Positions 20,066 through 54,349 of a stretch of DNA of 64,000 nt are shown here, in pieces. Under the pieces are notes generated by a model, which worked only from the letters and a program-made list of their open reading frames with translations, did not search any database and was not told the DNA's origin. The DNA comes from a virus. The stretch's first letter is position 1, and the number at the start of each line of letters is the position of its first letter. Location: IMG/VR virus record IMGVR_UViG_3300021478_000015, positions 92,984-156,983 of that record, one strand, 5' to 3'. A program made the position numbers and the translations under genes.

Positions 20066-20323
20066 ATGGCCACTGGAGCAACCTTCGCTGTCATCAACGG
20101 GCAGATGGTTCAGGTCGGTCTCGACGGGTCGATAGCCCACAAGGCGGTGGTCGGCACCTGCATCAACTGCGGGCAGGCCAACGTGCAACTGGACACCCAC
20201 TACGGCCGTCATGAGAACGTGCGCTATGTTTGCCTGTCCGCCACCCAGCTTCCCTTCATCGACGCCAACCAGAGCGCTCTGCCCGCCAACCAGAAGGGAG
20301 CGGCTCCAAGCAAGCACCGATGA
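20066..20323 (+). CDS. Small zinc-knuckle protein
   Basis: This 85-residue protein has a beta-type first part (TFAVINGQMVQVGLDGSIAHK) and then GTCINCGQ...HYGRH...YVCL, a CxxC...C arrangement that may bind zinc. The same C-terminal signature (GTCINCGQ, HY, YICL) ends the next gene, so the module is shared. Its stop overlaps the next start by four bases (ATGA). Function unknown. Confidence 0.65.
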   Translation: MATGATFAVINGQMVQVGLDGSIAHKAVVGTCINCGQANVQLDTHYGRHENVRYVCLSATQLPFIDANQSALPANQKGAAPSKHR

Positions 20324-21165: not shown

Positions 21166-21201
21166 CTGTCCCTGGCCGCCCCAGAGCGCCGAAGGGGTGA
21201 G
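21165..21201 (+). promoter_or_regulatory. CTGTC-24-CGAAG element, copy 4
   Basis: CTGTC starts at 21166, overlapping the previous stop region, with CCAGA at 21181 and CGAAG at 21190. CTGG/CCAG can pair. GGGTGAG leads to the ATG at 21202, seven bases after CGAAG. Confidence 0.7.
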
Positions 21202-21519
21202 ATGGCTACCGTCAACAAGAACCGGGCCTATCACGGCACCTTGACCGCGGCCACGGTGGACACCGTCAACTTGAGCCGGGTCTACGGCCGGGTCCAGGTC
21301 CTCAACCGGGGCGGGGCCAACGAGATCTACTGGACCACCGATGGCACCGCTCCCACCGTGGGCGGGGACAACTGCTGGGTGGTCCCTTCCCAGGTCGGGG
21401 CCTCCGACATCAGGGCCAACAGCCAGGCCCAGTCCAACACCTGCGTGGTCAAGCTGATCTCCACCGGGACCCCGACCTACTCGGTGCTGGGCGTGGACGA
21501 GACCGACATCGACCTCTAG
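21202..21519 (+). CDS. Small structural-type protein
   Basis: The 105-residue protein (ATVNKNRAYHGTLTAATVDTV...VQVLNRGGANEIYWTTDGTAP...SQVGASDIRA) is a beta-rich domain whose pattern, with IYWTTDGTAPTVGG, I associate with small actinophage virion proteins of unclear role, possibly capsid or tail decoration. It lies between two copies of the CTGTC/CGAAG element, so it may be its own transcription unit. Confidence 0.65.
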   Translation: MATVNKNRAYHGTLTAATVDTVNLSRVYGRVQVLNRGGANEIYWTTDGTAPTVGGDNCWVVPSQVGASDIRANSQAQSNTCVVKLISTGTPTYSVLGVDETDIDL

Positions 21520-21521: not shown

Positions 21522-21560
21522 CCTGTCCCTGGGCCATCCAGAGCCACGAAGTGGTGAAGC
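21522..21560 (+). promoter_or_regulatory. CTGTC-24-CGAAG element, copy 5
   Basis: CTGTC starts at 21523, CCAGA at 21538 and CGAAG at 21547, then TGGTGAAGCC. CTGG/CCAG can pair. The next ATG is at 21585 with AGGGAGA of its own. The sequence after CGAAG (TGGTGAA) is shared with copy 3. Confidence 0.7.
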
Positions 21561-21584
21561 CCCATCATCGAGGGAGATCTCCAA

Positions 21585-21899
21585 ATGGCGCGTGGTGTCA
21601 GAGTCAACAAAGCCAATACCAACTTGCCGAACGGGTTCTACTACCCGGTCAACGCCAACGTGGTGCTCAGCGACGATGAGTTTGCCCGGCTGGCCTTCGA
21701 CGTGTTCTCCTCGGGCACCCTCACCGACTTGGGCCAGCAAGGTGTCGCCGGGCAGCAGGTTACCACCCAGGGCGCGCACGTCGCCCTGACCTCTTCGCAG
21801 ATCGCCGCTGCTCCCACCCAGGCCAACTACAACGCCCTCCAGGCCGATGTGGCGGCCATCGTGGCCTCCCTCTCGGGGGCCGGAAAGGCCATGGCCTGA
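21585..21899 (+). CDS. Hypothetical small structural protein
   Basis: The 104-residue protein has a beta-type N-terminal half (VRVNKANTNLPNGFYYPVNANVVLSDDEFARL) and an Ala-rich helical C-terminus (NYNALQADVAAIVASLSGAG). It has no signal peptide. The gene is flanked by a CTGTC/CGAAG element and a strong terminator, giving a compact single-gene unit. I do not recognise the family; a head or tail accessory protein is likely from context. Confidence 0.6.
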   Translation: MARGVRVNKANTNLPNGFYYPVNANVVLSDDEFARLAFDVFSSGTLTDLGQQGVAGQQVTTQGAHVALTSSQIAAAPTQANYNALQADVAAIVASLSGAGKAMA

Positions 21900-21929
21900 C
21901 CTGACGCCCGTCGCCTGATCTTCGGCGCG

Positions 21930-21966
21930 AGGCCACACCCCCTTCGTCCTGTTCGGGGTGTGGCCT
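21930..21966 (+). terminator. Intrinsic-type terminator hairpin
   Basis: AGGCCACACCCC (21930-21941) pairs perfectly with GGGGTGTGGCCT (21955-21966), a 12-bp stem with a 13-base loop. TCGTCGCGTC follows, identical to the sequence after the hairpin at 20018-20047. The next CTGTC/CGAAG element begins at the last base of that decamer. Confidence 0.7.
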
Positions 21967-21975
21967 TCGTCGCGT

Positions 21976-22014
21976 CCTGTCACCGGTTCGACCAGGCCTA
22001 CGAAGGGATGAAGA
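21976..22014 (+). promoter_or_regulatory. CTGTC-24-CGAAG element, copy 6
   Basis: CTGTC starts at 21977, CCAGG at 21992 and CGAAG at 22001, then GGATGAAG. The following gene starts at 22047 behind its own GGAGGT. The copy lies immediately downstream of a terminator, which fits a promoter role. Confidence 0.65.
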
Positions 22015-22046
22015 CCATTCAAGTTCATCTCATGGAGGTAATCATC

Positions 22047-22592
22047 ATGTCTGGTTCCGGTGTTCTCATCGTTCGTAACATGCATGGGGGTCCAACCACT
22101 TTCCTTCATGAACATGATGGGATGAAGACTCCCTACGAATGGTTCGGAGCCGGAGACATAGACGAGCGCGACATCCTCGAAGTGCCTGAGTCCATGGCCA
22201 TGAGCCCCCACTTTCGCAAGGCGGTGGCGCGGGGCATCCTCAAGGTCGAGGAGGGTGACGAGGACGTGATCGCCTCGGTGAATCGGGCTGGGATGAGGTG
22301 GCAGGAGCGCCAGCTACAAAGGCGCAACGAGATCGAGGCCCAGATGGACCGCCAGGAGGATCGCTCCATGGTGGTCATCCCTTGCCAGGCTCCTGGCCCC
22401 AGAGGATCCCTCTGTGGGGCCAGCGTGTTCGAGCGCGAGGCCACCAAGGGGGCCAAGCCCCCACTGTGCTCAGCCCACCAGCATCTCTCGACCAACTTCG
22501 TCCAGGTGGAGACGGATGAGATCCGCAATGGCAAGGCCGTGATGATCTGGGTCGAAGCCTCCAAGACGGCCCGCAACGAAATCCCCGGATAG
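22047..22592 (+). CDS. Hypothetical phage protein with Cys/His cluster
   Basis: The 181-residue product begins MSGSGVLIVRNMHGGPTTF behind a clean GGAGGT site; in-frame ATGs further up were rejected because they fall inside the terminator and element. Its N-terminal half follows a pattern I associate with actinophage structural-region genes (NMHGGPTTF, then GAGDIDERDILEVPES, then ARGILKVEE). The C-terminal half has IPCQAPGPRGSLCG...PLCSAHQH, a possible zinc site. Function unknown. Confidence 0.65.
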   Translation: MSGSGVLIVRNMHGGPTTFLHEHDGMKTPYEWFGAGDIDERDILEVPESMAMSPHFRKAVARGILKVEEGDEDVIASVNRAGMRWQERQLQRRNEIEAQMDRQEDRSMVVIPCQAPGPRGSLCGASVFEREATKGAKPPLCSAHQHLSTNFVQVETDEIRNGKAVMIWVEASKTARNEIPG

Positions 22593-22601
22593 GAGATCCC
22601 C

Positions 22602-23432
22602 ATGCCTGACAAGACCGAAGAGAAGGCCCCTGCTGAAGAGGAAACCTCTGACGAGCCGGTGGTAGACGAGCGAAAGTCGGATGATGAGCCTCGGGTGGAA
22701 GGCCGCGCCGCCGAGGAGGAAGAGGAGGATCTGCGGCCCATCGCAGACCCGGAGGTGGCGGCTCAGATGGCCAAGGCCCGCGACATGGGCATCACCGGGG
22801 ACCCCGATGCTCCGCCCGGCTACTTCGTGGACGAGAACCACCGGCCCAACCCCCTGGACGTGGGCACCGTCATCACCACCGAGTACCACGGGGTGTCCAG
22901 CTACGACGTGGCCTCCTACTCCGGGGCCATCGCCAACGCCGGAGCCGATCCCTTCGAAGGGGTCGAGGTGCCCGAGAGCCCCGAGCCGCCCCCACAAATG
23001 GGAGCCACCGACTACGACCCCACCCTGGCTCCTGGTGTCCCCACCGAGGAGGCGGTCAAGGCCCACAACGAGTCCATGGTGGCCATGCAGGAGGCGGCCA
23101 TTCGGACCGCCCCTTCTGGAGCCAGCGAGTACGACCCCTCTACGCCCGGTGGCATCGCGCCCAGCGGTACCCATGTGGAGGAGTCCGCCCGGTCTGAGGC
23201 CGACAAGTCAGCCACGCCTGAGGGGACCTCGGGTGATCAGGACCCCAAGCTGGCCGAGGCCAGGGCCAAGGCGGAGGAGACCGTAGAGGCCGCCGAGGGG
23301 ACCGTGGCCGCCGTTGATGAGGCTCAGGGGGCTGACAAGGCTCAGGGGGCCAGGAAGGCCGCCAAGGCGGCCGCTCCGGCCTCTCCAGCGGGGACCAAGG
23401 ACACCGCCCTGGAGGCGGACCCCAAGAAGTAA
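22602..23432 (+). CDS. Acidic Ala/Pro-rich protein of unknown function
   Basis: The 276-residue protein is dominated by Glu, Asp, Ala and Pro. It has an acidic disordered start (DKTEEKAPAEEETSDEP), a middle with recurring STxYDPxxPGG-type phrases (ATDYDPTLAPGV, ASEYDPSTPGG) and an Ala/Lys-rich helical end (KAQGARKAAKAAAPAS). AGGAG precedes the ATG. Such proteins can be internal head proteins or disordered tails, but nothing specific shows this. It ends three bases before the next gene. Confidence 0.6.
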   Translation: MPDKTEEKAPAEEETSDEPVVDERKSDDEPRVEGRAAEEEEEDLRPIADPEVAAQMAKARDMGITGDPDAPPGYFVDENHRPNPLDVGTVITTEYHGVSSYDVASYSGAIANAGADPFEGVEVPESPEPPPQMGATDYDPTLAPGVPTEEAVKAHNESMVAMQEAAIRTAPSGASEYDPSTPGGIAPSGTHVEESARSEADKSATPEGTSGDQDPKLAEARAKAEETVEAAEGTVAAVDEAQGADKAQGARKAAKAAAPASPAGTKDTALEADPKK

Positions 23433-23435
23433 CCG

Positions 23436-24113
23436 ATGCCCACCCCGTCCACCAAGCTGGGGATCAACATCTTCAGCACCGCCGATCAGTTCTCCACGGC
23501 TGCCTACAACAACAACTGGCAGATCCTGGACGGCTTTCCGGGGTTCTACATCTGCACGTCCACCACCCGCCCGGTGTGGGGAGCCAACCAGTACGGCATG
23601 CGGATCACCGAAACCGACACCGGGCTGACCTGGATGTGGACGGGGACGGGTTGGGTCCGCAACATCGCCGCGGGCTCGGCGCTGGGAGCTTCGGGGGCGC
23701 AGGCTCGGGTGACCAGGACCTCGAACATCGGCACCACCACCACCTGGACCCCGCCCGGCACCGGCACCTTGACCACGGCGGTGACCCAGACCGTGCATCC
23801 CCCCAACGGGGGACGACTGCTCATGATCGTGGCCGAGGTCCCCGAGGTCGGCAATCCCAGTGGGCTGTCCTACATCGTGATCCAGCGCGACGCCACCATC
23901 TTGAACTCCTACCCGGTGTGGACCGCCCAGCAGACCGGCTCGGGCAACTCCGGTAAGGCCGGGTCGCCGGGGAACTTCGTCACCTTCGACGTGCCTGGCG
24001 AGGCCTCGGCCGTCTACACCCTGGCCTTCGCCGCGGCCACCGTCTCGGGTGGGACCACCACCCTGGTCGCCGCCCCCACCCGGCCCATCAGTTTGACGGT
24101 GATCGAGACATGA
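23436..24113 (+). CDS. Minor tail / fibre-associated protein
   Basis: The 225-residue product starts STKLGINIFSTADQFSTAAYNNNWQILDGFPGFYICTST, a pattern typical of the N-terminal attachment segment of actinophage fibre and baseplate-associated proteins. A beta-rich C-terminus with many Thr and Gly follows (TWTPPGTGTLTTAVTQTV, VYTLAFAAATVSGG). It opens the host-recognition gene block. The stop overlaps the next start (ATGA). It is probably a virion surface protein. Confidence 0.6.
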   Translation: MPTPSTKLGINIFSTADQFSTAAYNNNWQILDGFPGFYICTSTTRPVWGANQYGMRITETDTGLTWMWTGTGWVRNIAAGSALGASGAQARVTRTSNIGTTTTWTPPGTGTLTTAVTQTVHPPNGGRLLMIVAEVPEVGNPSGLSYIVIQRDATILNSYPVWTAQQTGSGNSGKAGSPGNFVTFDVPGEASAVYTLAFAAATVSGGTTTLVAAPTRPISLTVIET

Positions 24114-24307
24114 TCGAGACGGTCCGTCCGGGAGCCCCTTTCTATCCCTATCCCGAAGTGGGAGCACCGGTCGTAGACACCACCATCGATCCTGATCTCA
24201 TACGGCAAGGGAGTGTCTTATACGCCCTTCCTACCGCCGATAGTCCAGTGGTGGAGAACACGGTAGGAAGCATCATCATAACCGGACAACCAGGCCGAGA
24301 GTATTGA
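24110..24307 (+). CDS. Small hypothetical protein with YPYP motif
   Basis: The 65-residue protein begins MIETVRPGAPFYPYPEVGAP. A similar phrase (LYPYPAVGATP) ends the giant fibre at 36118, hinting at a shared interaction motif. GC is lower than in neighbours. Translationally coupled to the upstream fibre-associated gene by an ATGA overlap. Function unknown. Confidence 0.55.
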   Translation: MIETVRPGAPFYPYPEVGAPVVDTTIDPDLIRQGSVLYALPTADSPVVENTVGSIIITGQPGREY

Positions 24308-24326
24308 CCAGAACAGGATTGAGATC

Positions 24327-24650
24327 ATGACTGATACCCCTCCAGATCCAGAAACCAGAACGTGTGATATTTGTGGTCAGACGGACTCTGATCCACATCA
24401 TGTTCAGTACGTCGCTTTCAACCATCCGGTGACCGGGGAGCCGACTGATCTCTCGATTAGCCGACACCTTGATTGCTGCTCCACTGATGGTTGCGAGATT
24501 TGCGCTACTGACGTGGCTGCGGCCACCCAGGCCGGGCTCTCCATCCCGGAGTTCGTCCAGAACCGGCCCGAGGCCAACCTGCAGGCCCTGTTCGAGCAGC
24601 ACAGCATCGAGACGCCGGAGTTTTCCATCCCAGGGACCCAGGAGGCATAA
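24327..24650 (+). CDS. Small zinc-binding protein
   Basis: This is a 107-residue protein with CDICG, HHVQYVAFNHP, HLDCCSTDGCEIC, an array of at least six Cys plus His residues suggesting one or two zinc sites. The C-terminal half is a helical acidic stretch. Its first 180 bases are AT-richer than the remainder. It ends at the base before the next ATG. Such small zinc proteins occur in many phages, with mostly unknown roles. Confidence 0.65.
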   Translation: MTDTPPDPETRTCDICGQTDSDPHHVQYVAFNHPVTGEPTDLSISRHLDCCSTDGCEICATDVAAATQAGLSIPEFVQNRPEANLQALFEQHSIETPEFSIPGTQEA

Positions 24651-25034
24651 ATGGCCAACCTCGTTACCGTCGAAGCCAATGCCCTGCTGGCGGCCTCCTC
24701 GGGGCAAGCGGCATACCCGGCGGTCACCGCCCCGGTCAAGGTCGCCCTGGTGACCGCCACCGGCACCGCGGCTGCTCCCGGTACCGAGGTGACCGGCGGC
24801 TCCTACGCCCGGCAGACCATCACCTTCGCGGCTCCCTCGGGTGGCTCGATCGCCTCCAACGTGGCCCTCACCTACACCAACATGCCCGCCTGCACCGTCA
24901 CCGGAGTGGATGAGTACGATAGTACAGCCACACCCGTGAGACGCTGGTTTGGCGCTCTAAGTGCATCAAAAACGGTGAATGCAGGTGATACGTTCTCGAT
25001 TGCGTCGGGTAGCTATACAAAGACCCTGAGCTAG
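24651..25034 (+). CDS. Tail-fibre-type protein
   Basis: The 127-residue product has the layout of short phage tail fibre proteins (ALLAASSGQAAYPA...VKVALVTATGT...GTEVTGGSYARQTITFAAPSGGSIASNVALTYTNM in sections). Related proteins are encoded at 38121-38564 and 38576-38974. GC falls abruptly after 24905, within the last third of the gene, implying that the tip was exchanged. It directly precedes the first large fibre. Confidence 0.65.
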   Translation: MANLVTVEANALLAASSGQAAYPAVTAPVKVALVTATGTAAAPGTEVTGGSYARQTITFAAPSGGSIASNVALTYTNMPACTVTGVDEYDSTATPVRRWFGALSASKTVNAGDTFSIASGSYTKTLS

Positions 25035-25037
25035 CCC

Positions 25038-26651
25038 ATGGCGCTGTATCCGCCGCTGTGGATGCAGGAGGGCACCTATCCGGCCAACCTGGACCGGTTC
25101 TTCATCCAGGACGCCCTGGGACCCGGCCCAGCCCTTCTGAGTGGCTCTGGAGCCCTCCAGGTGACCCAACGGGCCGCCGGGACCAATATGTCGGTGGACG
25201 TGGCTGCAGGGCGAGCTTTGATCCCCGGCACCGACATCGCCAACCAGGGGGCCTACACCATCTGGTCCGACACCGTGGTCAACGTGCCCATCGCCGTCGC
25301 GCCGGGGGTGGGCACCGCCCGTATCGATCTGATCGTGGCTCAGGTTCGCGACGACTTCGTCATCGGTGGAGGCCGCAGCGACTTCGTCATCGTCCCCATC
25401 CAGGGCACCGCCGCTGTCACTGGTTCGCAGGTAGCTCCGGCCGTTCCATCTAGCACCTTGGTCTTGGCCCAGATCCTGGTCGGATCCAATGTTCCGGCCA
25501 TCCTCAACTCCTTCATCACCGACGTGCGGCCTTATGCCCGTGCCGCGAACACCCAGCTACTGGTCAGCCGTCCCCTGGCCTCTCTGATCACGGCGGGGTC
25601 GCCTTACACGGTCAACCACAACCTGAACACCACCAGCCTGATCGTGGATATCTGGGACACGGTGACCAATCAGCGCATCATGGCCAACGTGGCCATCGTG
25701 GACGCCAACAACATCTCGGTGTCGGTGACCCAGAACGCCCCCAACCCGGTCAACGTGGTCATCATGGGCACCTCGGTGGCCCCCACCATGGTGTTGCCCT
25801 CGAACCTGGCCACCGTCCAGTACGTCCAGCAGCAACTGACCCAGGCGTACAACTTCGCCTTCATGCAGACCATTGCTTCGCCCACGGCCGCGGGCTCGCC
25901 TTACAGCATCGCCCACAACCTCAATACCACCAACGTCTTTGTCGAGATCTGGGACGCCGTCACCAACCAGCTTGTGATGACTCAGATCAACATCGTGGAT
26001 GTCAATCACATCTCGATCACAGTGGCTCAGAACATGCCCAACTCCATCAACGTGGTGGTCATGGGCGTGGGTAATGCCCCTCTGCCACTCAACCCCTCTA
26101 ACACCGCCACCAAGCAGTATGTCGATTCTAAGACGCCCACTCTTCCGGCTGCGGTTACCACTGGTGCCACCATTCAGAGCTTCACCGATTCGTTGGGCGA
26201 TGTGTGGGTGGCTCTCAACGGTGTTAACGGTGGGAACTGGAGGCGAGCCCGTGATGTCTTGCACTCCGCCGTTTATCGCAATGCTGCCTGGACTACTTCC
26301 AATGCTAATACTCCAATAGCCTTTGACACTGTTATTAAGGACGACTACGGCCTCTGGGTTTCTCCTAGCTGGACTGCGCCTGTAGCGGGGTGGTACGACA
26401 TTTATGGTCAGTATGAGGCCACGCCTGCGGCTGCTGGTAACTTGTTTAACATCTTCATTGGTGCGGGCGTATCCGCATATCAGTCTACGTTTGCGAGGGC
26501 AGTCGAGACCACGGCGGCTCGAACTCATGCCTCTCTCTACTTGGCCGCGGGTGGACAGGGTCAAGTTGTCCTTCAAACCACGGCGGCCTACACAGGAAGC
26601 ACTGGTAACCAGTCTACTTGTGGCCGCTTTCACTATATGGGATCGGGCTGA
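25038..26651 (+). CDS. Tail fibre with C-terminal C1q-like tip
   Basis: The 537-residue protein has an N-terminal baseplate-attachment-like domain (residues 1-175, YPPLWMQEGTYPANLDR). Two tandem beta modules follow (about 180-250 and 280-350; each SPYxxxHNLNTTxxxVxIWDxVTNQ), then the tip (about 365-537) starting TLPAAVTTGATIQSFTDSLGDVWVALNGVNGG. The tip contains VAGWYDIYGQY and ends FHYMGSG, consistent with a C1q/TNF-like jelly roll. The tip is repeated as stand-alone proteins by the six genes that follow. GC drops at about 26120, exactly where the tip begins, supporting domain replacement. It is probably the receptor-binding fibre or its carrier. Confidence 0.75.
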   Translation: MALYPPLWMQEGTYPANLDRFFIQDALGPGPALLSGSGALQVTQRAAGTNMSVDVAAGRALIPGTDIANQGAYTIWSDTVVNVPIAVAPGVGTARIDLIVAQVRDDFVIGGGRSDFVIVPIQGTAAVTGSQVAPAVPSSTLVLAQILVGSNVPAILNSFITDVRPYARAANTQLLVSRPLASLITAGSPYTVNHNLNTTSLIVDIWDTVTNQRIMANVAIVDANNISVSVTQNAPNPVNVVIMGTSVAPTMVLPSNLATVQYVQQQLTQAYNFAFMQTIASPTAAGSPYSIAHNLNTTNVFVEIWDAVTNQLVMTQINIVDVNHISITVAQNMPNSINVVVMGVGNAPLPLNPSNTATKQYVDSKTPTLPAAVTTGATIQSFTDSLGDVWVALNGVNGGNWRRARDVLHSAVYRNAAWTTSNANTPIAFDTVIKDDYGLWVSPSWTAPVAGWYDIYGQYEATPAAAGNLFNIFIGAGVSAYQSTFARAVETTAARTHASLYLAAGGQGQVVLQTTAAYTGSTGNQSTCGRFHYMGSG

Positions 26652-27244
26652 TGTCGCTCATTCCCACCTACGCCCCTCCGGACAACCTTCCGGCTCCGCT
26701 CACATACGGCGGCATCCAGTCGTACACCGACATCTACGGCGACGTGTGGGTGGCCCTGGTCGGGGTCAATGGAGGAGCCTGGAGACGAGCCAAGGATGTC
26801 CTCTTCAGCCACGTCTATCGCGTCGCTGCTCTGAACTTGACGGCTGGCGGTGCCACCACGCTTATGGATGGCACGATCTCGGACAACTATAGTCTGTACA
26901 ATCCCGGCTTCCAAAGCGGAGTGGGTGCCTACATCATCCCGGTAGCAGGCTGGTACGAAGCTGTCCATCAAGTGGGAGGCACTGCCACTGCGGTCGGTCA
27001 GCAGATGGATGCTCGCATCTATAACAACGGTGTTTTGATGAGCGTGGCCAGGGTGCATACCACGCTGGCCACCAGTTTCTCAGCCATAACAACGTACTTG
27101 GGCCTCTGCAATGTCAATGACTACGTGCAGCCTTGGGACTACTGCAGCGCCACCATAGCGGCCATTGTGGGCTCGGGTACCCCGCCGAGCTTCGGTCCAG
27201 GGTACTGGACCTATTCCATCCTTCGATACCGGGGGACGGGCTGA
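26651..27244 (+). CDS. C1q-like fibre-tip protein, array member 1
   Basis: The 197-residue protein repeats the tip of the upstream fibre: PTYAPPDNLPAPL, then GGIQSYTDIYGDVWVALVGV, WRRAKDVLF, IPVAGWYEAV, and the end LRYRGTG. It lacks the attachment domain, so it must join another protein to reach the virion. The ATG overlaps the previous TGA by one base, indicating coupled translation. Confidence 0.7.
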   Translation: MSLIPTYAPPDNLPAPLTYGGIQSYTDIYGDVWVALVGVNGGAWRRAKDVLFSHVYRVAALNLTAGGATTLMDGTISDNYSLYNPGFQSGVGAYIIPVAGWYEAVHQVGGTATAVGQQMDARIYNNGVLMSVARVHTTLATSFSAITTYLGLCNVNDYVQPWDYCSATIAAIVGSGTPPSFGPGYWTYSILRYRGTG

Positions 27245-27810
27245 TGAGCCTAATCCCCACTTACGCTATCCCCGACAGTCTTCCGCCTCCGGTTATCTCT
27301 GGTACCACCGTGCAGTCATTCACCGACGTGTGGGGCGATGTGTGGATAGCCAAGAACGGGGTCTATGGAGGAGCTTGGAAACGGGCGCGGGACACCCTCT
27401 ACGGCAAGTGGTATCGCAATGCTGCCTTCACGTTGCCAGCGGGGCAGGCCGCGGTCCCACTTGATAGCACTACCCGAGATCCCTACAGCATGTACACCAA
27501 TCCTGCCGGTAGTGCTGCGTATCCGCCTATTTCAGGTCTGTATGACATTCTCTGGCAGGTTACGGCTAATGCTACTGCTAGCGGTCAGTGGGTACAACCT
27601 CGGTTTTTCATCAATGGTATGCTGATGGGTGTTTCTCAGTCTTATGCCTCTTCGGTTAACGCCTTTAGCAGTGTCATAAGCCAGCAGTTTGTTCTCCATG
27701 TGGGAGATTACATACAGTTCTACGACAACGCTAGTACTGCGTTGGCAGCAGGAGTAGGCGCTCCGGGTTACTGGACTTACGCCACCGTCGAGTACTACGG
27801 AACGGGGTGA
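27244..27810 (+). CDS. C1q-like fibre-tip protein, array member 2
   Basis: The 188-residue product (SLIPTYAIPDSLPPPVISG) has the same core IQ/VQSFTDVWGDVWIAKNG, WKRARDTLYGKWYRNAA, SGLYDILWQV and end VEYYGTG. It is coupled to the preceding gene by a one-base stop/start overlap. GC is lower than in the surrounding structural genes. It is closest in sequence to array members 1 and 3. Confidence 0.7.
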   Translation: MSLIPTYAIPDSLPPPVISGTTVQSFTDVWGDVWIAKNGVYGGAWKRARDTLYGKWYRNAAFTLPAGQAAVPLDSTTRDPYSMYTNPAGSAAYPPISGLYDILWQVTANATASGQWVQPRFFINGMLMGVSQSYASSVNAFSSVISQQFVLHVGDYIQFYDNASTALAAGVGAPGYWTYATVEYYGTG

Positions 27811-27814
27811 TGTC

Positions 27815-28363
27815 ATGAGCCTTGTTCCTGCCTATGCCATTCCTGATAATCTTCCGGCTCCCGTTACCTCGGGTGCCACCATCCAATCGTTCACCGATGT
27901 TTGGGGTGACGTATGGGTGGCCAAGAACGGTGTCAATGGTGGGAGATGGAAACGGGCACGCGACGCCATCTACGCCAAGTGGTTTCGTAATGCGGCCATT
28001 TCCATTGCTGGTGCCGCTGTTCTTACGCTGGATACTATGACCAAGGACGACTATGGCCTCTACTCTGCGGCGGCGTTCACCGTACCGGTAGCAGGCTGGT
28101 ACGATGTCGTCTTTCAGCTAGCCGTCACGGCCACCGCTACGGGACAATGGTGTTCGGCTCGCATCAACGTCAACGCGGCCTTGCAAGGGATTATGCGAGC
28201 GCATTCTGGTGCGGCGGCCGCCATCTCGGCCACCTGCATCCAGCAGCTTGCTTTCAACGCTGGAGACACCGTGAACGCGGTGGCTGAGGCCAGCGTTTCA
28301 TTGGCTTGTACGCCGTTGGTTTACTGGACCTACGCCACCTTGCAGTATCGGGGGACGGGCTGA
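27815..28363 (+). CDS. C1q-like fibre-tip protein, array member 3
   Basis: The 182-residue product (SLVPAYAIPDNLPAPVTSG) contains IQSFTDVWGDVWVAKNGVNG, WKRARDAIYAKWFRNAA, VPVAGWYDVVFQL, and ends LQYRGTG. Of the array it is the closest match to the tip consensus. Four bases separate it from the preceding gene. No attachment domain is present. Confidence 0.7.
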   Translation: MSLVPAYAIPDNLPAPVTSGATIQSFTDVWGDVWVAKNGVNGGRWKRARDAIYAKWFRNAAISIAGAAVLTLDTMTKDDYGLYSAAAFTVPVAGWYDVVFQLAVTATATGQWCSARINVNAALQGIMRAHSGAAAAISATCIQQLAFNAGDTVNAVAEASVSLACTPLVYWTYATLQYRGTG

Positions 28364-28932
28364 TGACCATCCAGACCTACGCCCTCATCGATAACCTGCC
28401 GCCGCCGGTCACCTCGGGATCGGGCATCCAGAGCTTTACCGACGCCATGACCGGCGAGGTTTGGATCGCCAAGAACGGTGTCTACGGTGGAGCTTGGCGC
28501 AAGGCCCGAGATGTGGTGCATTTCCATACCTACCGTGCTGCTGCCTACAACTTGCCCACCGCGTCGGCTGTTATCGTTTTCGATACCCCTTGGCATGACA
28601 CCTGGGGATTTTCTGCTGGATCTAACTACCAGTTTACGGCCTGGATCCCAGGCTTTTATCGTGTCTTTTCCTACCTGGAAGTCTCGGTAGCGGCAGCGGG
28701 TACTTATATCCAGATGAACCTCATGCAGAACAACGCCACCAACTGGTCCAGCGACAACTATTTCACCAGCCGTGCCTCCGGTGGTCTGTGTGCCCGGACT
28801 CAAGCGCTTATGTATTTAAGCATAGGAGATCTTGTCAACCTCCATGCTTACCAGCCACAGGGTTACCCATGCATCGTCAGTGGGAGTCCTCCTCCCTGTC
28901 ATCTTGAAGTCAGTTATCTGGGTACCGGATGA
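28363..28932 (+). CDS. C1q-like fibre-tip protein, array member 4
   Basis: The 189-residue protein (TIQTYALIDNLPPPVTSG) keeps IQSFTDAMTGEVWIAKNGVYG, WRKARDVVHFHTY and the end VSYLGTG, but the jelly-roll middle has diverged (AWIPGFYRVFSYLEVSVA) and gained cysteines (GGLCART, YPCIV, PPCHLE). It overlaps the previous stop by one base and the next start by four. Confidence 0.68.
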   Translation: MTIQTYALIDNLPPPVTSGSGIQSFTDAMTGEVWIAKNGVYGGAWRKARDVVHFHTYRAAAYNLPTASAVIVFDTPWHDTWGFSAGSNYQFTAWIPGFYRVFSYLEVSVAAAGTYIQMNLMQNNATNWSSDNYFTSRASGGLCARTQALMYLSIGDLVNLHAYQPQGYPCIVSGSPPPCHLEVSYLGTG

Positions 28933-29534
28933 CCATCCAGGCTTATACCGGCGCTGAACTCAACATCCTGCCACCCCCGGTGACCACGGGTGGCATCCAG
29001 AGCTTCCTGGACCTCTACAGAGAGCTTTGGATAGCAAAACCTGGCGTTAACGGAGGCAACTGGAGGAAGGCTCGCGATGTCCTCCACGCCTCGGTGTACC
29101 GTAATGCGGCTCTTGTTGCTCCCACGGCTAACTCCGTTTTTCCGGCTGACACCGTTATTCGTGACCCGTATGGCATCTGGGTTGGCAGCCCCACCTACGC
29201 GTTTGTGTTGCCAGTGGCGGGCAGTGTTTCAGGTGCGGTATACCCGGCCAGTTGGTGGCGCTTCGCCTTCCACTGGGTCTTGCAATCAGCGACCAGCCCC
29301 AACTATGTCGGCTGCCAGATCTTCCAGAACGGTTCGGGCGTCACCCAGGACAACATGATCATGAATCAAACCTCAGCCGGTAACTGTTCGGCCCGGACGC
29401 AGTACATGGGTCTTGGCTCGGCTAATGACACGTTTCAAGCGTATTATTCGTCCAGTGTTGCCAGCTTGAATGTCTATACTGGTCCGTCTATAAATACCTT
29501 CTCCTGCGCCTTCATGGGATTGTTCTTCGGATGA
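28929..29534 (+). CDS. C1q-like fibre-tip protein, array member 5
   Basis: The 201-residue protein (TIQAYTGAELNILPPPVTTG) has GGIQSFLDLYRELWIAKPGVNG, WRKARDVLHASVYRNAA and later LPVAGS. Its end (SCAFMGLFFG) lacks the YxGTG signature of other members, so this is the most divergent copy. It is coupled to both neighbours by four-base overlaps. Confidence 0.65.
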   Translation: MTIQAYTGAELNILPPPVTTGGIQSFLDLYRELWIAKPGVNGGNWRKARDVLHASVYRNAALVAPTANSVFPADTVIRDPYGIWVGSPTYAFVLPVAGSVSGAVYPASWWRFAFHWVLQSATSPNYVGCQIFQNGSGVTQDNMIMNQTSAGNCSARTQYMGLGSANDTFQAYYSSSVASLNVYTGPSINTFSCAFMGLFFG

Positions 29535-30091
29535 GCATTAACACGGGTGTTCCCGTCAATGGTTTCCCTCCTCCTTGGACGGCCTCGAACGTTGTTCAGT
29601 CTTACGTCGATCCATGGGGCGAAGTATGGGTGGCTAGAAGCAGTGTGGCCGGTGGCCAGTGGGGCAGAGCGCGTGATTGGCTACACGCTGTCATATATCG
29701 CAACGCCGCTTACACCATGCCCACGTCACAGACCGTTATTCCCTATGACACTCAACTGGCTGACAACTTTGGTCTGTACACTGTCTCTCCCACTTACGGT
29801 TTCACCGTTCCGATAGCAGGCTGGTATTGGGTCCAGGCCACCTGTAATGGCAACTGCAATGCCACCGGGCAGTACATCCAGGGCAGTATCTTTCAAAACA
29901 GCACCGGTATCACCAATGAGAACAGCATCACTTCTCTTACTGGCGGCGGGTTGTCCTGGCGCACCTGGAATGATGTGTTTTGTGCAGCCGGGGACAAGAT
30001 CAACGCGCAGGCTTACAACCCCACTGGATTGGCGGCCCAGGTGGGTCAGTCGAATACTCGACTAGAGATCTCATACATCGGTACTGGCTAG
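29531..30091 (+). CDS. C1q-like fibre-tip protein, array member 6
   Basis: The 186-residue protein (SINTGVPVNGFPPPWTASN) has VQSYVDPWGEVWVARSSVAG, WGRARDWLHAVIYRNAA, VPIAGWYWVQATC and the end ISYIGTG. It closes the array. It contains extra cysteines (CNGNCNATG), and its start overlaps the previous stop by four bases. Confidence 0.68.
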   Translation: MSINTGVPVNGFPPPWTASNVVQSYVDPWGEVWVARSSVAGGQWGRARDWLHAVIYRNAAYTMPTSQTVIPYDTQLADNFGLYTVSPTYGFTVPIAGWYWVQATCNGNCNATGQYIQGSIFQNSTGITNENSITSLTGGGLSWRTWNDVFCAAGDKINAQAYNPTGLAAQVGQSNTRLEISYIGTG

Positions 30092-30099
30092 GAGAGCCC

Positions 30100-30441
30100 A
30101 TGAGCTACCAGACCCAAGCCCTGCTCAACGAGGACTCGGATTTCACCGGGCGGCGTTGTCGCTCCTGCCTGTTTCAGAAGGCGTCGGAGGTCTATCAGGA
30201 GGCCGGATCGGCCTCCGATGTCCAGGCCCTGTCCAGCGCCTTGCTGAAGGACGACCCGGCTCCTCTGAGCGCCTTCCTGCGGGCCATTTGTGCCGCTCCG
30301 GGATTTGCCGACATGGTGGACAACGGGGATGGCACCATCGACCAGTCCAAGATCTCCGACGAGGATCTCCTGGCCGCGGTGACCGAGCTTTATCCCGTCA
30401 TCGCCACGTTGTTCTTCACCAGCGATGGCACTCCGGTCTGA
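30100..30441 (+). CDS. Hypothetical acidic helical protein
   Basis: The 113-residue protein begins MSYQTQALLNEDSDFTGRRCRSCLFQ behind GGAGAG; the longer frame is shadow. It is mainly helical (ASDVQALSSALLKDD, SAFLRAICAAPGFADM) with an acidic loop (DNGDGTIDQSKISDEDLL) resembling a degenerate EF-hand-like turn, though this is weak. It separates the fibre-tip array from the giant fibre. Fibre assembly or attachment is possible but unproven. Confidence 0.6.
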   Translation: MSYQTQALLNEDSDFTGRRCRSCLFQKASEVYQEAGSASDVQALSSALLKDDPAPLSAFLRAICAAPGFADMVDNGDGTIDQSKISDEDLLAAVTELYPVIATLFFTSDGTPV

Positions 30442-30466
30442 TCGAATGTAGGTGGTGATTTAGCTC

Positions 30467-33400
30467 ATGCCTGGCGGCCGTGTTTACAGCCTCACCTTCA
30501 ATCGTAACTACGGCCCGCCGGTAGACGTTGGGATAGCCCCTTTAGCGGCCTCGGCCGGGATGACCATCGGGGCCACCGTCACCGAGATCGCAGCGGTGGC
30601 CATGGCGGGTTCGGCGGCCCTGCAGGTGGCCAGTACCACGCTGGTCGCAGGCAGCAAGATGGCCACGCTCACCGACGCCTTCACCACGGCCGGAGCCCCC
30701 GATTCCACCAAGTGGTTGCCCTACGCCAGTGCCGGGGTCACGGTGGCCAACTCGGGCGGAGCGTTGAGCGTCAGCCTGCCCGCCAATGCCGCCATAGGCG
30801 TCGGCGGGGGGATCTACTCCGGCACCGCGGCCCAGCCCAACGGGAGCTACTACGACCTGACCGAGAGCTACGCCCTGTTCCAGATGACCAGCGCCGGGAA
30901 CCAGGCTGACACCACCCATCAGGCCCTGGTCACCTTCATGCTCTACGACCAGGACGGCAACGACTTTGGCTGGGCCGTCCAGGGCAACCAGATCTTCTGG
31001 CTGGACCAGGACGGCGTCCATCAGAATCCCCAGCCCTACAACGCCGCCACCTATCAGTGGTTGCGGATCCGCGAGCACGCCGGGACCACCTATTTCGACT
31101 ACAGCGCGAACGGCAACATCTGGTCGAACTTCGCCGCCGTCCCGGACAGCACCTGGATCTATCCACCCCGGTACCTGCAGCCCACCTTTCAGTTCGACTC
31201 GCAGGCGGGCTCGGGGCTGGTGGCCCAGAGCGCCACCTTCGACAACTTCAACCTGCCTCCGGCCGCGGCCGTGCCTATGTCAGGGACCGCCGGGATGACC
31301 ATCGGTGGGGCCGTCACCAAGGTGGCGGCGACCTCCTTGGCCGCTACTGCCGGGATGACCGTAACCCCGGCGACGGCGACCGTAACGGCCTCCGTCTTTG
31401 CTCCCACCCATCTGCTGACCGCCGCCGATGCGGACTTCGAGACCGGCGTGGGCTCCTGGGCTCCCCTCCAATACTGCAATGTGGCCCAGACCACGGCCGT
31501 GGCCCATACCGGCTCGGGAGCGCTGGCCATCACCTCGACAACGGCCACCTCGGGGCTCACCGCTTGGCCGACGCGCTACGCCGTTACCCCCGGCCAGATC
31601 TACAAGGCCAGCTTCTGGGCCATGGCCGCCACCAACGCCCGCAACGTGCAATGCCAACTGGTCTTCTACGACGCCAGTCTGGCGGTGATCGCAGGCTCGG
31701 GCGGCACCGCCACCATGGGCGATCAGGTGGGCTCCTGGAATCAGTTCGGGGCTCCACCGATAGCGGTCGCTCCACCCAACGCGGTCTATGCCGCGGTGCT
31801 GTTTGTTGGCTTCGGGGCGATTCCCGTCAACGAAGTCCACTACATCGACACCGTCACCCTTGATCAGCAACCGGGGGGTGTGGCCGCTCTGACGGTCGGG
31901 GCCATCGACATCACGGGTTCTCCCGATCTGCTATCGGCGGAGTCGTCTGGGTTCGAGGGCGGCACCACCGGTAACTGGAGTGGCACCGGGGGGCTGACGC
32001 TCACCAACATCACCTCGCAGGCCCATTCGGGCACTCACGCCCTGCAGATCTCCGCCACTCAGCCTGTCGGGACGGTCCAGGCCAAGCAGTCCACAACCAT
32101 CCCGGTGACCCCTGGCTCGGCCTATGTCTTCAGCGGCTGGGCCATGGCCGGTTCGGCTTCGCTCACATCCGCCTTTTTACAGATCTCTTGGCTGACGGCG
32201 GCTCAGGCTCCGATCAGTACGACCAACGGAGTATCCACGCCGATCTCGACCTCGGCATGGGCATATCTGACCGTTAGTGATGTCGCTCCACCTACCGCGG
32301 CCTATGCTCAAATACAGATCAACTGGCCGGTCACATCCGCCAATCTACCGATTTACTGGGATGACTTTAGCTTCGCCTCGGTACTGGTCAGCATGGGCGC
32401 AGTCAATGTGCTGGCCACCGACGACTCGACCTTCGAGGGCGGCACCGCTGGATCCTGGATCAATGTGTCCGGTACCACCGTGGCTAATACTACCGCGGTG
32501 GCCTCAAGTGGTACTCATGCTCTTGCTATCACCGCCACCGGTACCGGGGGTGGCCAGATTTCGACATCACATACGCTTTATCCAGCCATTGCTGGGGTTA
32601 GTTACACGGCCAGTTTGGATTCTCAGGCGGCGACGATTCCTCGGGTTGTTTCTTGTATATTGAACTTCTACAACAATGCGGGAGGTTTTCTAGGTTCTTA
32701 TACCAGTCCGCAACTCCCAGATAATACCTGGGTCAGGGTAACCGTATCGGGTGTTGCTCTGGCGAATACTGCCTATGTGGGAGTAGGTTGGAATAATAAC
32801 AACAATGTCAGTGTCAATGGCGAAGTCCATTACATCGACAATGTCAGCCTTTATCAGACGGCTGGTGCGCTAGCCAAACTGAGCATAACGCCAACGGTCA
32901 AAGAGGTCGCCACTGTTGCTCAGTCGGGCACGGCGGGGTTGAGCATCGATACCTCGGTCACCGAAGTGGCTACGGCTCCTCTGAGCGCCAATGCCAGTCT
33001 GGCGGTGAGTGGTGCTCAGGTCACCGAAGTGGCCGCGGCTCCATTGGCCGCTTCGGCAGGCATGTTCGTGGCCACCACCGGCCTGCAGGTGGCCAGCATC
33101 ACCCTGGCCGGAGGCGCAACGCTCAACATCAGTGGCCTCTTGACCGAGACCGCCAGCGTGGCCGAGGCGGCCAACGCCAGCATGGTCGTCACCGTCGCCT
33201 CCAAGACCATCACCGGCACCCCCATCCTGGGCTTGGCCCTCAACGTGCTGGTGGGCGACGACTCCTCCTTCGAGAGCGGCAGCACCGGCACCTGGCAAGG
33301 CCAGAACACCACCGTGGCCAACACCACTGCCGTGGCCCAGAGCGGCACCCACTCCCTGGCCATCACCGCCACCACCACCTCGGGGGGCTCGGCCTCCACG

Positions 33401-36118
33401 GCCTGGAACCTCTACCCGGCTATCGCGGGCAATACCTACGCCGCCAACCTGGGCTCGCTGGCGGCCACCACGCCCCGCAGCTTCATGGTCCAGATCGTTT
33501 TCTTCGACGCTGGATCGAACGTGGTGGGCTCACTCAACGGGGTACCCGCCACCAATCAGACCGGCTCTACCTGGACCATCGCCTCCGCCCAGGGAGTGGC
33601 TCCAGCGGGCTCGGTCTGGATGGCGGTCTACTGGCGCAACAACACGGGCGTGAGCGCCATAGGCGAGGTTCACTACATCGACCTCGTCGTCCTGAAGCAG
33701 AACTTCGGGGCGGTGGCCGGACTCAGCATCGGCACCCCGGTCATCTCCAGGACCGCCTCCGTCCCTCTGGCCGCCACCACGGGCATGGCCATTGGAGGCA
33801 AGGTCTCCGAGGTTGCATCCGTCCCTCTGGTCGGGAGCGCAGCCCTCACGGTCATACCCGTATGGCCGAAGGTGGAGGTGCTGAGGGATGCCTTCAATGT
33901 GAATGGCCCACCAGATCCGACCAAGTGGGTCATGTATGCCCCGTCTGGTCCGGATCCCGCGGCTGGTGGCGCTGATATTCCCACCGTGGTCAACCAGCAA
34001 GTGCAGTGGACGACCGGTGGTTATTACACGGGATTAGCTTCGGCCCAACCATACACCTTGATCGAGAGTCACATACTCTTCAATCTGGTCAACGCTGGAG
34101 ACCAAAGTGTTAGCAGTGACTTGGAACTCTATTTGATGATGACCAACCGGGTACACAATCCGACCCTCTACAACGAGATTAACTGGTACATCAACGAAGG
34201 GAAGATCTACTCCAGCGTCTATGTCAACAACAACCAAGTACCCTGCGGTCCACCAGGAGGCGTCACCTTCGATCCGGTGGCGCATGCCTGGTTACGGTTT
34301 CGGGAGACGGGCGGCACGATCTACTTTGACACCTCGGCGGATGGGCTTGTCTGGACCAACTTCGCCAGCACTCCTGACATACCTGAGGTAGCCCAACTCA
34401 ACCTACTTCTCCAAGCCGGTACCTGGAGCTATCCCTCAACCCATAACGCGGTTGTCGCCTTTGACAACGTCAATAATCCACCTCCAGTTCTCGGTGGAGT
34501 ACAGCAGTCGGCTACCTCGGGCCTGAGCATGACCGTTCAGAGCACCTTCTTGGCCTCGATGGATCTGGAGGCCGATGCCTACCTGAACGTCAAGTTCAAG
34601 GCCAATACTCTCCAGGACAACTTCAACAGCGGAGTGCTTGATCCAAACAAGTGGTGGTTTGATGACGTAAGCGACGGCTATGGCGGCAAGGTCCAGATCG
34701 TCAATGGACAGGTCAACATCTCCACTGATCTCACCGCCTCGTATCCTGACCTGGAGGCCATGGGTGGTTACGATCTCACCGAGTCGAATATCACGCTTGA
34801 ACTGGCCAGCGCCGGTAATCAGAACCTGGCCTCATTGCAAGTGTGGATCATCGATGCCGGAGCAGGATGGTTCCTGCAGAACAATACTCTTACGGCTTAT
34901 CTGGGCAATGTAACCGAAGTTGGTAATCCGCCTTACGGTCCTCGTTGGACTGGTGCTTACAATCCGGCTGTCCATAAGTGGTTTCGGGTGCGAGAAACGA
35001 GTGGCACGCTCTATTGGGACTACTCACCGGACGGCTTGGCCTGGACGAACGCCTGGAGTCAGGCCACTCCTGCTCCCACCGACCTGGATATGACCAATGT
35101 CTATCCCTCCATGCTGGTGAACACCGGGGCCGAGGCCTCGACCACCACGGTCATCTGGGACAACTACAACACCCTCCCGGTGGTCAGCGCGGCCGCCGTG
35201 GTGATGTCCGCCAGCGCGGCCATGACCACGGGGACCGCCACCATCTCCAGGACGGCCTCGGTCCCCCTGGCGGCCAGCGCTGGGATGACCATCGGGGCCT
35301 CGATCACCCAGCTTGCCAACGTGGTTTTGGCCGGTGGGGCCACCCTCAATGTCTCGGCCCTGGTCACCGAGGTGGCTGCGGTGCCCATGGCGGCCACGGG
35401 CAGCCTGAGCGCGGCTGGGATCATCACCAAGCTGGGCACAGTCTCCTTGACGGCCACCGCCGGATTGACGGTGGCGGCTGCGGTCACCGAGCAGGCCACT
35501 GTGGCCATGGCGGCCACCACCGGGATGGTGACCTCCACCGCCATCATCGGGTTTGTCATCTGGTCAGGCTCCACCACCCTAACGGTGGGGGCGCAGGTCA
35601 CCGAGCTAGCTGCGGTGCCCCTGGTGGCCTCTGCCGCCCTGAACGTGACGGTGGTGGTCCAACAGGTCGGTCTGGTCTCCATGACCGCCAGCGCCGCTCT
35701 CAGCGTGACCGGGATATTCCTGGTCCAGTTTGGGACCATTTCTCTGTCGGCCACGGCCGGTCTCATCGTGGGTCCCACCGTCAAAGAGATCGCCTCGGTC
35801 ATCCTGTCGGCTCAGGCCGGTCTCACCACCACTGGCATCGCGGTAGAGATCGCCTTTGTCTCCATGACCGCTCAGGCCGGTCTGGTCTTGACTGGCGTGA
35901 CCACCGAGATCGCGGCCATCGCCTTCTTGACGGCCACCGCCACCCTCTTCAGTGGCACCGTCGAGGAGTTCGCCTCAGTACGCCTGTCGGCCACCACCGG
36001 CATGACCGTCGTCGGTAGCGCCATCGCCATAGTCTTCGTTTTCAGGGATCTGGTTCGAGCCCAGGCGCAGCTTTATCCTTATCCTGCAGTAGGTGCCACG
36101 CCCGAGACCTCGGGCTGA
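30467..36118 (+). CDS. Giant modular tail fibre with lectin and CBM-like domains
   Basis: The 1883-residue protein is a chain of beta modules. Three concanavalin/LamG-like domains lie at about residues 68-265 (DAFTTAGAPDSTKW), 1137-1342 (DAFNVNGPPDPTKWV) and 1382-1570 (DNFNSGVLDPNKWW). Four CBM4/9-like domains lie at about 315-473, 485-642, 648-798 and 923-1078, each with FE(T/G/S)G near the start, a SGxxALxI phrase and HYID or YWDD near the end. Between and after them runs a 20-25-residue repeat of the type VxEVAxVPLxAxAGLxVxG, most extensive at 1575-1855. It ends FRDLVRAQAQLYPYPAVGATP. The module CBM3 (32400-32900) and lectin 2 are visibly AT-richer than neighbours, suggesting module exchange. 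It is very likely a receptor-binding fibre or head/tail appendage that recognises surface polysaccharide. Confidence 0.75.
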   Translation: MPGGRVYSLTFNRNYGPPVDVGIAPLAASAGMTIGATVTEIAAVAMAGSAALQVASTTLVAGSKMATLTDAFTTAGAPDSTKWLPYASAGVTVANSGGALSVSLPANAAIGVGGGIYSGTAAQPNGSYYDLTESYALFQMTSAGNQADTTHQALVTFMLYDQDGNDFGWAVQGNQIFWLDQDGVHQNPQPYNAATYQWLRIREHAGTTYFDYSANGNIWSNFAAVPDSTWIYPPRYLQPTFQFDSQAGSGLVAQSATFDNFNLPPAAAVPMSGTAGMTIGGAVTKVAATSLAATAGMTVTPATATVTASVFAPTHLLTAADADFETGVGSWAPLQYCNVAQTTAVAHTGSGALAITSTTATSGLTAWPTRYAVTPGQIYKASFWAMAATNARNVQCQLVFYDASLAVIAGSGGTATMGDQVGSWNQFGAPPIAVAPPNAVYAAVLFVGFGAIPVNEVHYIDTVTLDQQPGGVAALTVGAIDITGSPDLLSAESSGFEGGTTGNWSGTGGLTLTNITSQAHSGTHALQISATQPVGTVQAKQSTTIPVTPGSAYVFSGWAMAGSASLTSAFLQISWLTAAQAPISTTNGVSTPISTSAWAYLTVSDVAPPTAAYAQIQINWPVTSANLPIYWDDFSFASVLVSMGAVNVLATDDSTFEGGTAGSWINVSGTTVANTTAVASSGTHALAITATGTGGGQISTSHTLYPAIAGVSYTASLDSQAATIPRVVSCILNFYNNAGGFLGSYTSPQLPDNTWVRVTVSGVALANTAYVGVGWNNNNNVSVNGEVHYIDNVSLYQTAGALAKLSITPTVKEVATVAQSGTAGLSIDTSVTEVATAPLSANASLAVSGAQVTEVAAAPLAASAGMFVATTGLQVASITLAGGATLNISGLLTETASVAEAANASMVVTVASKTITGTPILGLALNVLVGDDSSFESGSTGTWQGQNTTVANTTAVAQSGTHSLAITATTTSGGSASTAWNLYPAIAGNTYAANLGSLAATTPRSFMVQIVFFDAGSNVVGSLNGVPATNQTGSTWTIASAQGVAPAGSVWMAVYWRNNTGVSAIGEVHYIDLVVLKQNFGAVAGLSIGTPVISRTASVPLAATTGMAIGGKVSEVASVPLVGSAALTVIPVWPKVEVLRDAFNVNGPPDPTKWVMYAPSGPDPAAGGADIPTVVNQQVQWTTGGYYTGLASAQPYTLIESHILFNLVNAGDQSVSSDLELYLMMTNRVHNPTLYNEINWYINEGKIYSSVYVNNNQVPCGPPGGVTFDPVAHAWLRFRETGGTIYFDTSADGLVWTNFASTPDIPEVAQLNLLLQAGTWSYPSTHNAVVAFDNVNNPPPVLGGVQQSATSGLSMTVQSTFLASMDLEADAYLNVKFKANTLQDNFNSGVLDPNKWWFDDVSDGYGGKVQIVNGQVNISTDLTASYPDLEAMGGYDLTESNITLELASAGNQNLASLQVWIIDAGAGWFLQNNTLTAYLGNVTEVGNPPYGPRWTGAYNPAVHKWFRVRETSGTLYWDYSPDGLAWTNAWSQATPAPTDLDMTNVYPSMLVNTGAEASTTTVIWDNYNTLPVVSAAAVVMSASAAMTTGTATISRTASVPLAASAGMTIGASITQLANVVLAGGATLNVSALVTEVAAVPMAATGSLSAAGIITKLGTVSLTATAGLTVAAAVTEQATVAMAATTGMVTSTAIIGFVIWSGSTTLTVGAQVTELAAVPLVASAALNVTVVVQQVGLVSMTASAALSVTGIFLVQFGTISLSATAGLIVGPTVKEIASVILSAQAGLTTTGIAVEIAFVSMTAQAGLVLTGVTTEIAAIAFLTATATLFSGTVEEFASVRLSATTGMTVVGSAIAIVFVFRDLVRAQAQLYPYPAVGATPETSG
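35190..36030 (+). repeat. Run of about twelve degenerate beta-strand repeats in the giant fibre
   Basis: The protein phrase (S/A)AxAxLxVxxxVxEVAxVxLxA recurs every 20-25 residues, for example SLTATAGLTVAAAVTEQATV and ILSAQAGLTTTGIAVEIAFV. The DNA repeats are diverged. The regular hydrophobic alternation predicts a stacked beta solenoid or a shaft. The same repeat connects the lectin modules earlier in the gene (for example at about 31270-31390 and 32870-33200). Confidence 0.7.
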
Positions 36119-53917: not shown

Positions 53918-54349
53918 ATGTTCACTCTGCTGATCCAGAACGGAGACCTTCAGATCGGGGCCAATGGCTTCGCCGCCCTCAACGGCTCCCAGAAGGTCTA
54001 TCAGGATCTCACCATCGCCAGCCTGGAACCGCTCGGATGTGATCGCTTCCACCCCCGGTGGGGATCCATGCTCTACACCTACATCGGTGACGCCATCACC
54101 GCGGTGGAAGAGTCGATGATCGAGGCGGAGATCTCCCGGTTGGTGAACAACTACATCCTGGTGCAGCAGGACAACATCGCCAGTGAGGCCTCTCTCGGCT
54201 TGCAGAGCCAGTATTCCAGCAATGAAGTGGTGGGCTCGGTTGAGAGTATCGACGTTATCCAAAACCAGGACTATCTCAGTGTGAACGTCTTGGTCCAGAC
54301 CATCTCAGGAGAACAGGTGACCCTCCAGAGCACCGTGAGCAACGCCTGA
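53918..54349 (+). CDS. Baseplate wedge protein, gp25/gpW-like
   Basis: The 143-residue protein has the length and plan of the T4 gp25/P2 gpW family: NGSQKVYQDLTIASLEPLGCDRFHPRWGSMLYTYIG near the start, then helices with EESMIEAEISRLVNNYILVQQ, and a final beta hairpin (LSVNVLVQTISGEQVTLQS). It lies directly before the J-like gene, the conserved order. It nucleates sheath assembly in related phages. Confidence 0.75.
   Translation: MFTLLIQNGDLQIGANGFAALNGSQKVYQDLTIASLEPLGCDRFHPRWGSMLYTYIGDAITAVEESMIEAEISRLVNNYILVQQDNIASEASLGLQSQYSSNEVVGSVESIDVIQNQDYLSVNVLVQTISGEQVTLQSTVSNA

Follow-up and report, generated by a model that had tools for sequence, protein, structure and literature searches.

Introduction

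In the neck fibre of the Anabaena myophage A-1(L), trimers of the anchor-less protein gp81 stack by their N-termini on the anchored gp82, and the complete fibre (gp82-gp81-gp80) comprises one gp81 repeated about 14 times and one terminal protein (PMC10966104). Here we describe a gene array that can be compared with this fibre. It lies in a stretch of 64,000 nucleotides (nt), hereafter the window, which covers positions 92,984 to 156,983 of the 157-kb soil virus record IMGVR_UViG_3300021478_000015, and it consists of a fibre gene, F, followed by six small genes, A1 to A6, each encoding a stand-alone homologue of the tip that the fibre itself carries. As in A-1(L), an anchored protein with a C-terminal bead and small anchor-less genes share one operon in a myovirus; unlike in A-1(L), the candidate beads are six different homologous heads of predicted C1q fold and not one repeated bead.

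C1q-like receptor-binding proteins are already known in phages, as are virions with several binding proteins. In T-even phages, gp38 is a detachable fibre-tip adhesin, encoded by a separate small gene after the fibre gene, that provides the receptor-binding tip; unlike the array, it is a single gene, whose product neither copies the tip of the fibre itself nor is C1q-like. The C1q-domain receptor-binding proteins of pelagiphages (PMC3909814), Synechococcus phage S-SRM01 and Gordonia phage EricDab (a minor tail protein) have the same jelly-roll fold as the tips described here and, like them, lie beside or at the end of fibre genes and are highly variable. Those among the matches listed are single proteins, and in the literature searched we found no description of a neck subdomain, gene joints or multi-copy arrays for them. 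Finch gp37 and Myrna gp117 also have C1q-like ends (recognized by profile in Finch and through shared PHROG profiles in Myrna) and are encoded in the same block between the major capsid protein (MCP) and the neck genes, just upstream of the same conserved gene. Unlike the array, each is one larger protein, and the neck subdomain is missing in Finch gp37, since the tip profile matches it (expectation value, E, 2e-7) only from position 45. Adjacent small β-rich genes encode the gp35/gp36/gp37 heterotrimer of phage Mysterious, whose products assemble around an N-terminal arm; according to its description (preprint PMC13252515), this is a fixed set of three in a siphophage baseplate, unlike the array. 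The branched tail-spike complexes of Ackermannviridae place several binding proteins on one virion, as is proposed here, although there, as reported (PMC11414711), these are large separate proteins in a branched complex and not stand-alone copies of one tip. A variable-number array of stand-alone fibre tips with standard joints was not found described in the literature searched, subscription papers being mostly outside it.

Results

F (25038-26651, + strand, 537 amino acids, aa) is composed of a body (25038-26132), in which the AlphaFold2 (AF2) model delineates an N-terminal anchor domain (residues ~1-170), two immunoglobulin-like β repeats (~172-245 and 273-343) and a KQYVD linker, and of a C-terminal tip of about 170 residues (26133-26651), formed by a neck subdomain and a C1q-like jelly roll. 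It is followed on the same strand by A1 (26651-27244, 197 aa), A2 (27244-27810, 188 aa), A3 (27815-28363, 182 aa), A4 (28363-28932, 189 aa), A5 (28929-29534, 201 aa) and A6 (29531-30091, 186 aa). All six frames are open (182-201 aa), and their products are homologous to the last ~170 residues of F. In an all-against-all BLASTP comparison, the seven tips are all related, with identities mostly of 31-49% over the aligned stretches and E no higher than about 1e-24. The pairs A2/A3 (49%, E 3e-67) and A1/A2 (45%) are the strongest, and F/A3 reaches 40% (E 1e-38); F and A5 share 58% identity, but over the first 86 residues only. This homology is far above chance, and tip matches in the whole record fall in these seven places only. 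The original prediction, made from the window alone, that the fibre C-terminus and the six following genes share one tip is thus borne out, with the tip starting near 26133 and not at 26110. The YxGTG ending that it ascribed to most copies is present in five of the seven, the exceptions being A5 (MGLFFG) and F (YMGSG).

The genes are coupled, as proposed earlier: TGATG overlaps occur at F/A1, A1/A2 and A3/A4, ATGA overlaps at A4/A5 and A5/A6, and a gap of 4 nt separates A2 from A3. No promoter- or terminator-like signals above chance were found inside the array, and no RNA elements or tRNAs in the window. The GC content of the array is 55-59%, against mostly 62-65% around it, which agrees with the earlier remark that the region is AT-richer than its surroundings, and the shift is mostly at third codon positions. 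GC at these positions (GC3) is 0.58-0.72 in A1-A6; within the F gene, it is 0.55 in the tip and 0.84 in the body. When the other phages examined are included, GC3 is below that of the surroundings for 26 of 27 stand-alone tips, for which frequent transfer or a relaxation of codon use could account.

Alignment, identity statistics and tree were based on 78 tips from this and related loci. The tip consists of two parts. About 60 residues form a conserved neck (IQSFTD..GDVWVA..GV.GG.W..ARD), and the other part is a variable jelly roll of the C1q/TNF type. The shared invariant motifs sit in the neck and at the last strand (YxGTG). Mean identity is 48% for the neck and 24% for the jelly roll, and the identities of the two parts are almost uncorrelated (r 0.17), the pattern expected of a conserved collar with a changing head. 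The same holds within the window, where array members reach up to 60% identity with F in the neck and at most 28% in the jelly roll; for A5 the values are 60% and 24%. The AF2 model of A3, built with the 78-tip alignment, has a mean predicted local distance difference test (pLDDT) score of 95.5 and shows a short leader, the neck at residues ~14-75 and a β jelly roll. Foldseek placed this model closest to the C1q domain of Caprin-2 (4oum, E 1.9e-8, target TM-score 0.84) and to other solved C1q and TNF-family domains (C1QL1-3, EDA-A1), and its closest viral models are phage C1q-domain proteins. The family profile retrieved C1q and adiponectin entries among PDB chains (E 1e-9 to 1e-3), and A4 alone matched Pfam C1q at E 0.002, under the curated cut-off. 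From predicted fold and profile similarity alike, the tip appears to belong to the C1q/TNF jelly-roll superfamily. The model of F, in which an N-terminal domain, two immunoglobulin-like repeats, the linker and the tip can be recognized, is of moderate overall confidence (pLDDT 75), with low values for the N-terminal 40 residues and good ones across the repeats.

The stand-alone genes had been described as lacking an attachment domain. They indeed encode only the tip, but it follows a short N-terminal leader with the conserved pattern M[STA]x(2-6)Y[ATV]...P[LT]PxPVTSG, which is common to stand-alone copies in about ten phages; A6 and the copy in locus L046 do not follow the pattern. At the same position, fibre-borne tips have a different linker, in many of them KxYVDxRTPNLPxPVTSG. 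Since the stand-alone tips are not monophyletic in the tree, the leader was kept or regained under changing heads, and it has probably been kept for a purpose. In the monomer model of A3, the leader is the least confident part (mean pLDDT 71, residues 1-10), which might fit a docking peptide. The joints between genes are also standardized: the stop/start joint, most often TAYNNGGGACGGGCTGATG, opens stand-alone genes in about ten phages, unrelated ones included, and the codons of the terminal Y-x-G-T-G also put a G-rich stretch before the next start codon. A collection-wide viral scan for the full joint returned seven stretches, six from the tip family and one (L101) from an unrelated gene; a chance origin of the joint was rejected because six of the seven matches fall in the family.

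Tip relatives were collected from 53 loci in a scan of uncultivated viral contigs, from L062, found with the fibre as query, and from several loci of a second scan. In total, some 55 further uncultivated phage contigs carry related tips. Most related loci have a single tip, at the end of a fibre, and stand-alone copies are present in about a dozen. Their number ranges from one after the fibre (L017, and L082 with a fibre of 2,017 aa) to three or four after the fibre (L022, L027) or four in a row (L012), and two loci (L009 and L026) have two fibres and two stand-alone copies each. In about 20 loci, the fibre is followed by 0 to 6 stand-alone tips and then by a marker gene of about 110 aa, beside the last tip in most, which is also present at single-fibre loci such as L062, L018 and L039; tip copy number therefore varies at a fixed slot. 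The comparison of array content between relatives, suggested earlier as a check, thus revealed clear differences at this slot. In the window, the marker gene lies at 30100-30441 (+ strand, 113 aa). Its product is 35-49% identical across many phages, downstream of tip-bearing fibres, and a PHROG search gave one weak match among 15 members; it could be a fibre assembly helper.

The most informative relative is L026, whose flanks match the window (87% for the 24651 gene, 77% for the 36133 gene) and which has four tips against seven. Its tip closest to A4 is fused to a laminin-G-like domain (branch support 96), and its last stand-alone tip (10655) groups with A6 (47% identity). Downstream of the array, a repetitive protein of 1,883 aa (30467-36118, + strand) contains laminin-G-like stretches (residues ~128-265 and 1433-1596) that are homologous to the N-terminal part of the L026 fusion (L026:9103-10269). 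In an annotated phage collection of 50,697 records, tblastn gave no match for the tips of A3, L027 and L025, and F gave three weak matches in Streptomyces phages, restricted to the N-terminal domain. Two scans of bacterial genomes yielded no relative, hence no prophage example.

In the tree, fibre-borne and stand-alone tips interleave, with 17 state changes needed. At least 4 switches between the two states are forced by well-supported branches, many other branches being weak, as the domain is short. A natural tip swap is also seen on the baseplate side of the window, where a fibre (52967-53899, + strand) has an N-terminus 57% identical to that of the tip-bearing fibre of L023 and another C-terminal domain; the fibre chassis thus varies too. 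Over shorter times the array is stable. Another contig of the same virus, 99.3% identical (L061, IMGVR_UViG_3300021475_000016), shows no difference from ~21548 to 30467 and 0 single-nucleotide polymorphisms (SNPs) in the array. Between the same two contigs, a block of about 1.4 kb (20066-21519) has 121 SNPs between identical flanks, with 20366-20915 unalignable, and is a likely recombination hot spot; for its genes (20066-20323 and 20341-21519) the strain comparison is coarse, as small alignment gaps make a synonymous/nonsynonymous split unreliable.

No reverse transcriptase (PF00078) was found in the 157-kb record, which may be incomplete, in line with the earlier statement that no retroelement is visible; serine resolvases/invertases (PF00239) and tyrosine recombinases (PF00589) are likewise absent from the record, and no inverted repeats were found in 25000-30500. 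There is no near-identical tract between the F tip and the array members, and the best long DNA match among the latter is 77% over 183 nt. A diversity-generating retroelement, invertase or recombinase mechanism was rejected on the absence of the enzymes and repeats from the record. A recent conversion event involving F and array genes was rejected on the lack of near-identical tracts, the identity with F reaching 60% in the neck but not more than 28% in the jelly roll. The proposal of a diversification system without a reverse transcriptase hence finds no support here. That of a store of interchangeable tips holds for evolutionary exchange with fibre-borne tips and is not supported as regards a dedicated store.

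The virus infects bacteria, and its host is probably an actinobacterium. It is a myovirus, with a tail sheath gene at 41674 and baseplate J at 54349. Two actinobacterial myophages, Finch and Myrna, are collinear with it (MCP 56%, sheath 35% identity, neck-to-baseplate order kept). F and the array are inside an accessory block that extends from the MCP gene to the first conserved gene on the neck side (36133). Some 24 kb separate them from the baseplate genes, and in the same block Myrna gp111 is annotated as 'head decoration'. Given this location, remote from the baseplate and flanked by capsid and neck genes, F may be a head- or neck-attached fibre, as synteny indicates, and the term fibre used so far is not to be taken as tail fibre. 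F matches PHROG virion structural protein profiles and is 56% identical to the L062 fibre. Immediately upstream of it lies a structural protein of 127 aa (24651-25034, + strand) of the Gp80 (podophage GP4 fiber I)/phrog_240 'head protein' family (PF23140, E 3e-17; phrog_240, E 6.5e-14), which shares 85-90% identity with its counterparts in L062, L017 and L026. It is preceded by a small conserved protein of 107 aa (24327-24650, + strand) with homologues at the same position in these three loci (50-60% identity).

Discussion

The reading that we favour, to which we give a probability of about one half, is that A1-A6 provide six extra trimeric C1q-like heads, made together with F and assembled onto or beside it through their leaders, with several heads per virion. 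C1q/TNF-family domains are a group known to trimerise. F and A1-A6 would be produced together as structural proteins by coupled translation, and the heads would fold as trimers in the manner of C1q domains. These trimers would then dock onto or beside F via the conserved N-terminal leaders, and one virion would display several different binding heads, as a multi-specific adhesive device. The array would correspond to the bead-chain neck fibre of A-1(L) in a heterogeneous form, with beads that differ from one another. More tentatively, anchored F and up to six different heads could be combined through the standard joints and leaders into a poly-specific fibre on the head or neck, as a chain or a cluster, possibly with mixed trimers. 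If so, host-contact specificity would shift by gain or loss of whole cassettes and not by point mutation or inversion. Phages are usually viewed as altering their binding through exchange or mutation of a single fibre tip; here, complete extra tips are kept in several lineages as separate coupled genes, bounded on both sides by standard joints. The variable copies suggest modular parts from which adhesive fibres of several specificities are built, and not a system for switching or mutation; if all tips enter the virion, they would constitute a plug-in architecture for such multi-specific adhesion. Arrays of this kind can be found in uncultivated phages by the sequence signatures that the conserved neck, leader and joint provide.

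Several observations weigh against this reading. The tip profile showed no significant similarity to A-1(L) gp80-82, the best E being 0.02 in a 3-sequence search at maximum sensitivity, with 1.1 bits for the best domain. Homology to the neck-fibre beads was thus not found, and the A-1(L) chain serves as an analogy only, not as a family to which the array belongs. The leader could be merely an ordered N-terminal edge of the tip, given that fibres have a comparable linker (KxYVDARTPNLP) at that point. Tips of the same family are also found in tail-fibre regions of siphophage-like contigs, after the tail genes, and on baseplate-side fibres, and so the tip as such does not dictate a head or neck placement.

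The chains A, B and C of complement C1q combine in mixed trimers, and the stand-alone tips might likewise hetero-trimerise, either among themselves or with the F tips, generating many combined surfaces from few genes. The C1q fold and the presence of adjacent, coupled and similarly sized paralogues speak for this, and the mycobacteriophage baseplate heterotrimer of three consecutive products, gp35/36/37, is a precedent (preprint PMC13252515). Nevertheless, the jelly rolls within the window are only 17-41% identical, which makes freely exchangeable trimer interfaces less likely; the three tips of F share one shaft, so that a stand-alone subunit must displace a covalently attached tip; and the number and content of the arrays change freely between phages, unlike in an obligate heteromer. 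We regard mixed trimers as rather unlikely. It is improbable that the genes are maintained chiefly to donate sequence that, by recombination into the fibre, alters its specificity. Although the forced switches between fibre-borne and stand-alone tips, the natural crossover points offered by the conserved neck and 3' end, and the single fibre N-terminus found with different C-termini in the window and in L023 are in keeping with such a store, the intact coupled frames and the conserved leader argue for use as proteins. Moreover, no recombinase, reverse transcriptase, inverted repeat or recent transfer tract accompanies the array, and the array has 0 SNPs between the two strains. Exchange looks like a slow by-product of homology.

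The small, single-domain size of the products and their lack of a large attachment domain would also suit free or loosely attached proteins that do not belong to the fibre. Such proteins could be released, or coat the capsid or the surface of the host, and act as decoys, competitors or aids to assembly; the location in the capsid-neck block, where Myrna has a decoration protein, points the same way. We consider this quite unlikely, as inspection by eye, with no predictor used, revealed no signal peptide in A1-A6, the synteny with marker gene and fibre ties the tips to the fibre, and at least one close relative, in L026, is fused to another structural-type domain. Finally, the low GC3 could mean relaxed or foreign codon use in a decaying family of duplicates with no selected role. 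With all six frames intact, leader, neck and joints conserved across distant phages, and the same arrangement arising or persisting in many lineages, decay is highly improbable.

Two other features of the window were noted. In the capsid module, just upstream of the MCP gene, a composite open frame of 3,116 aa (5048-14398, + strand) joins an N-terminus resembling a head maturation protease to NUDIX, rifampin ADP-ribosyltransferase (Arr-ms), ParB-like and GNAT domains. Further downstream, the adjacent genes 47321-48517 (398 aa) and 48519-49736 (405 aa) both match one same gene in Finch and in Myrna, which suggests a tandem duplication.

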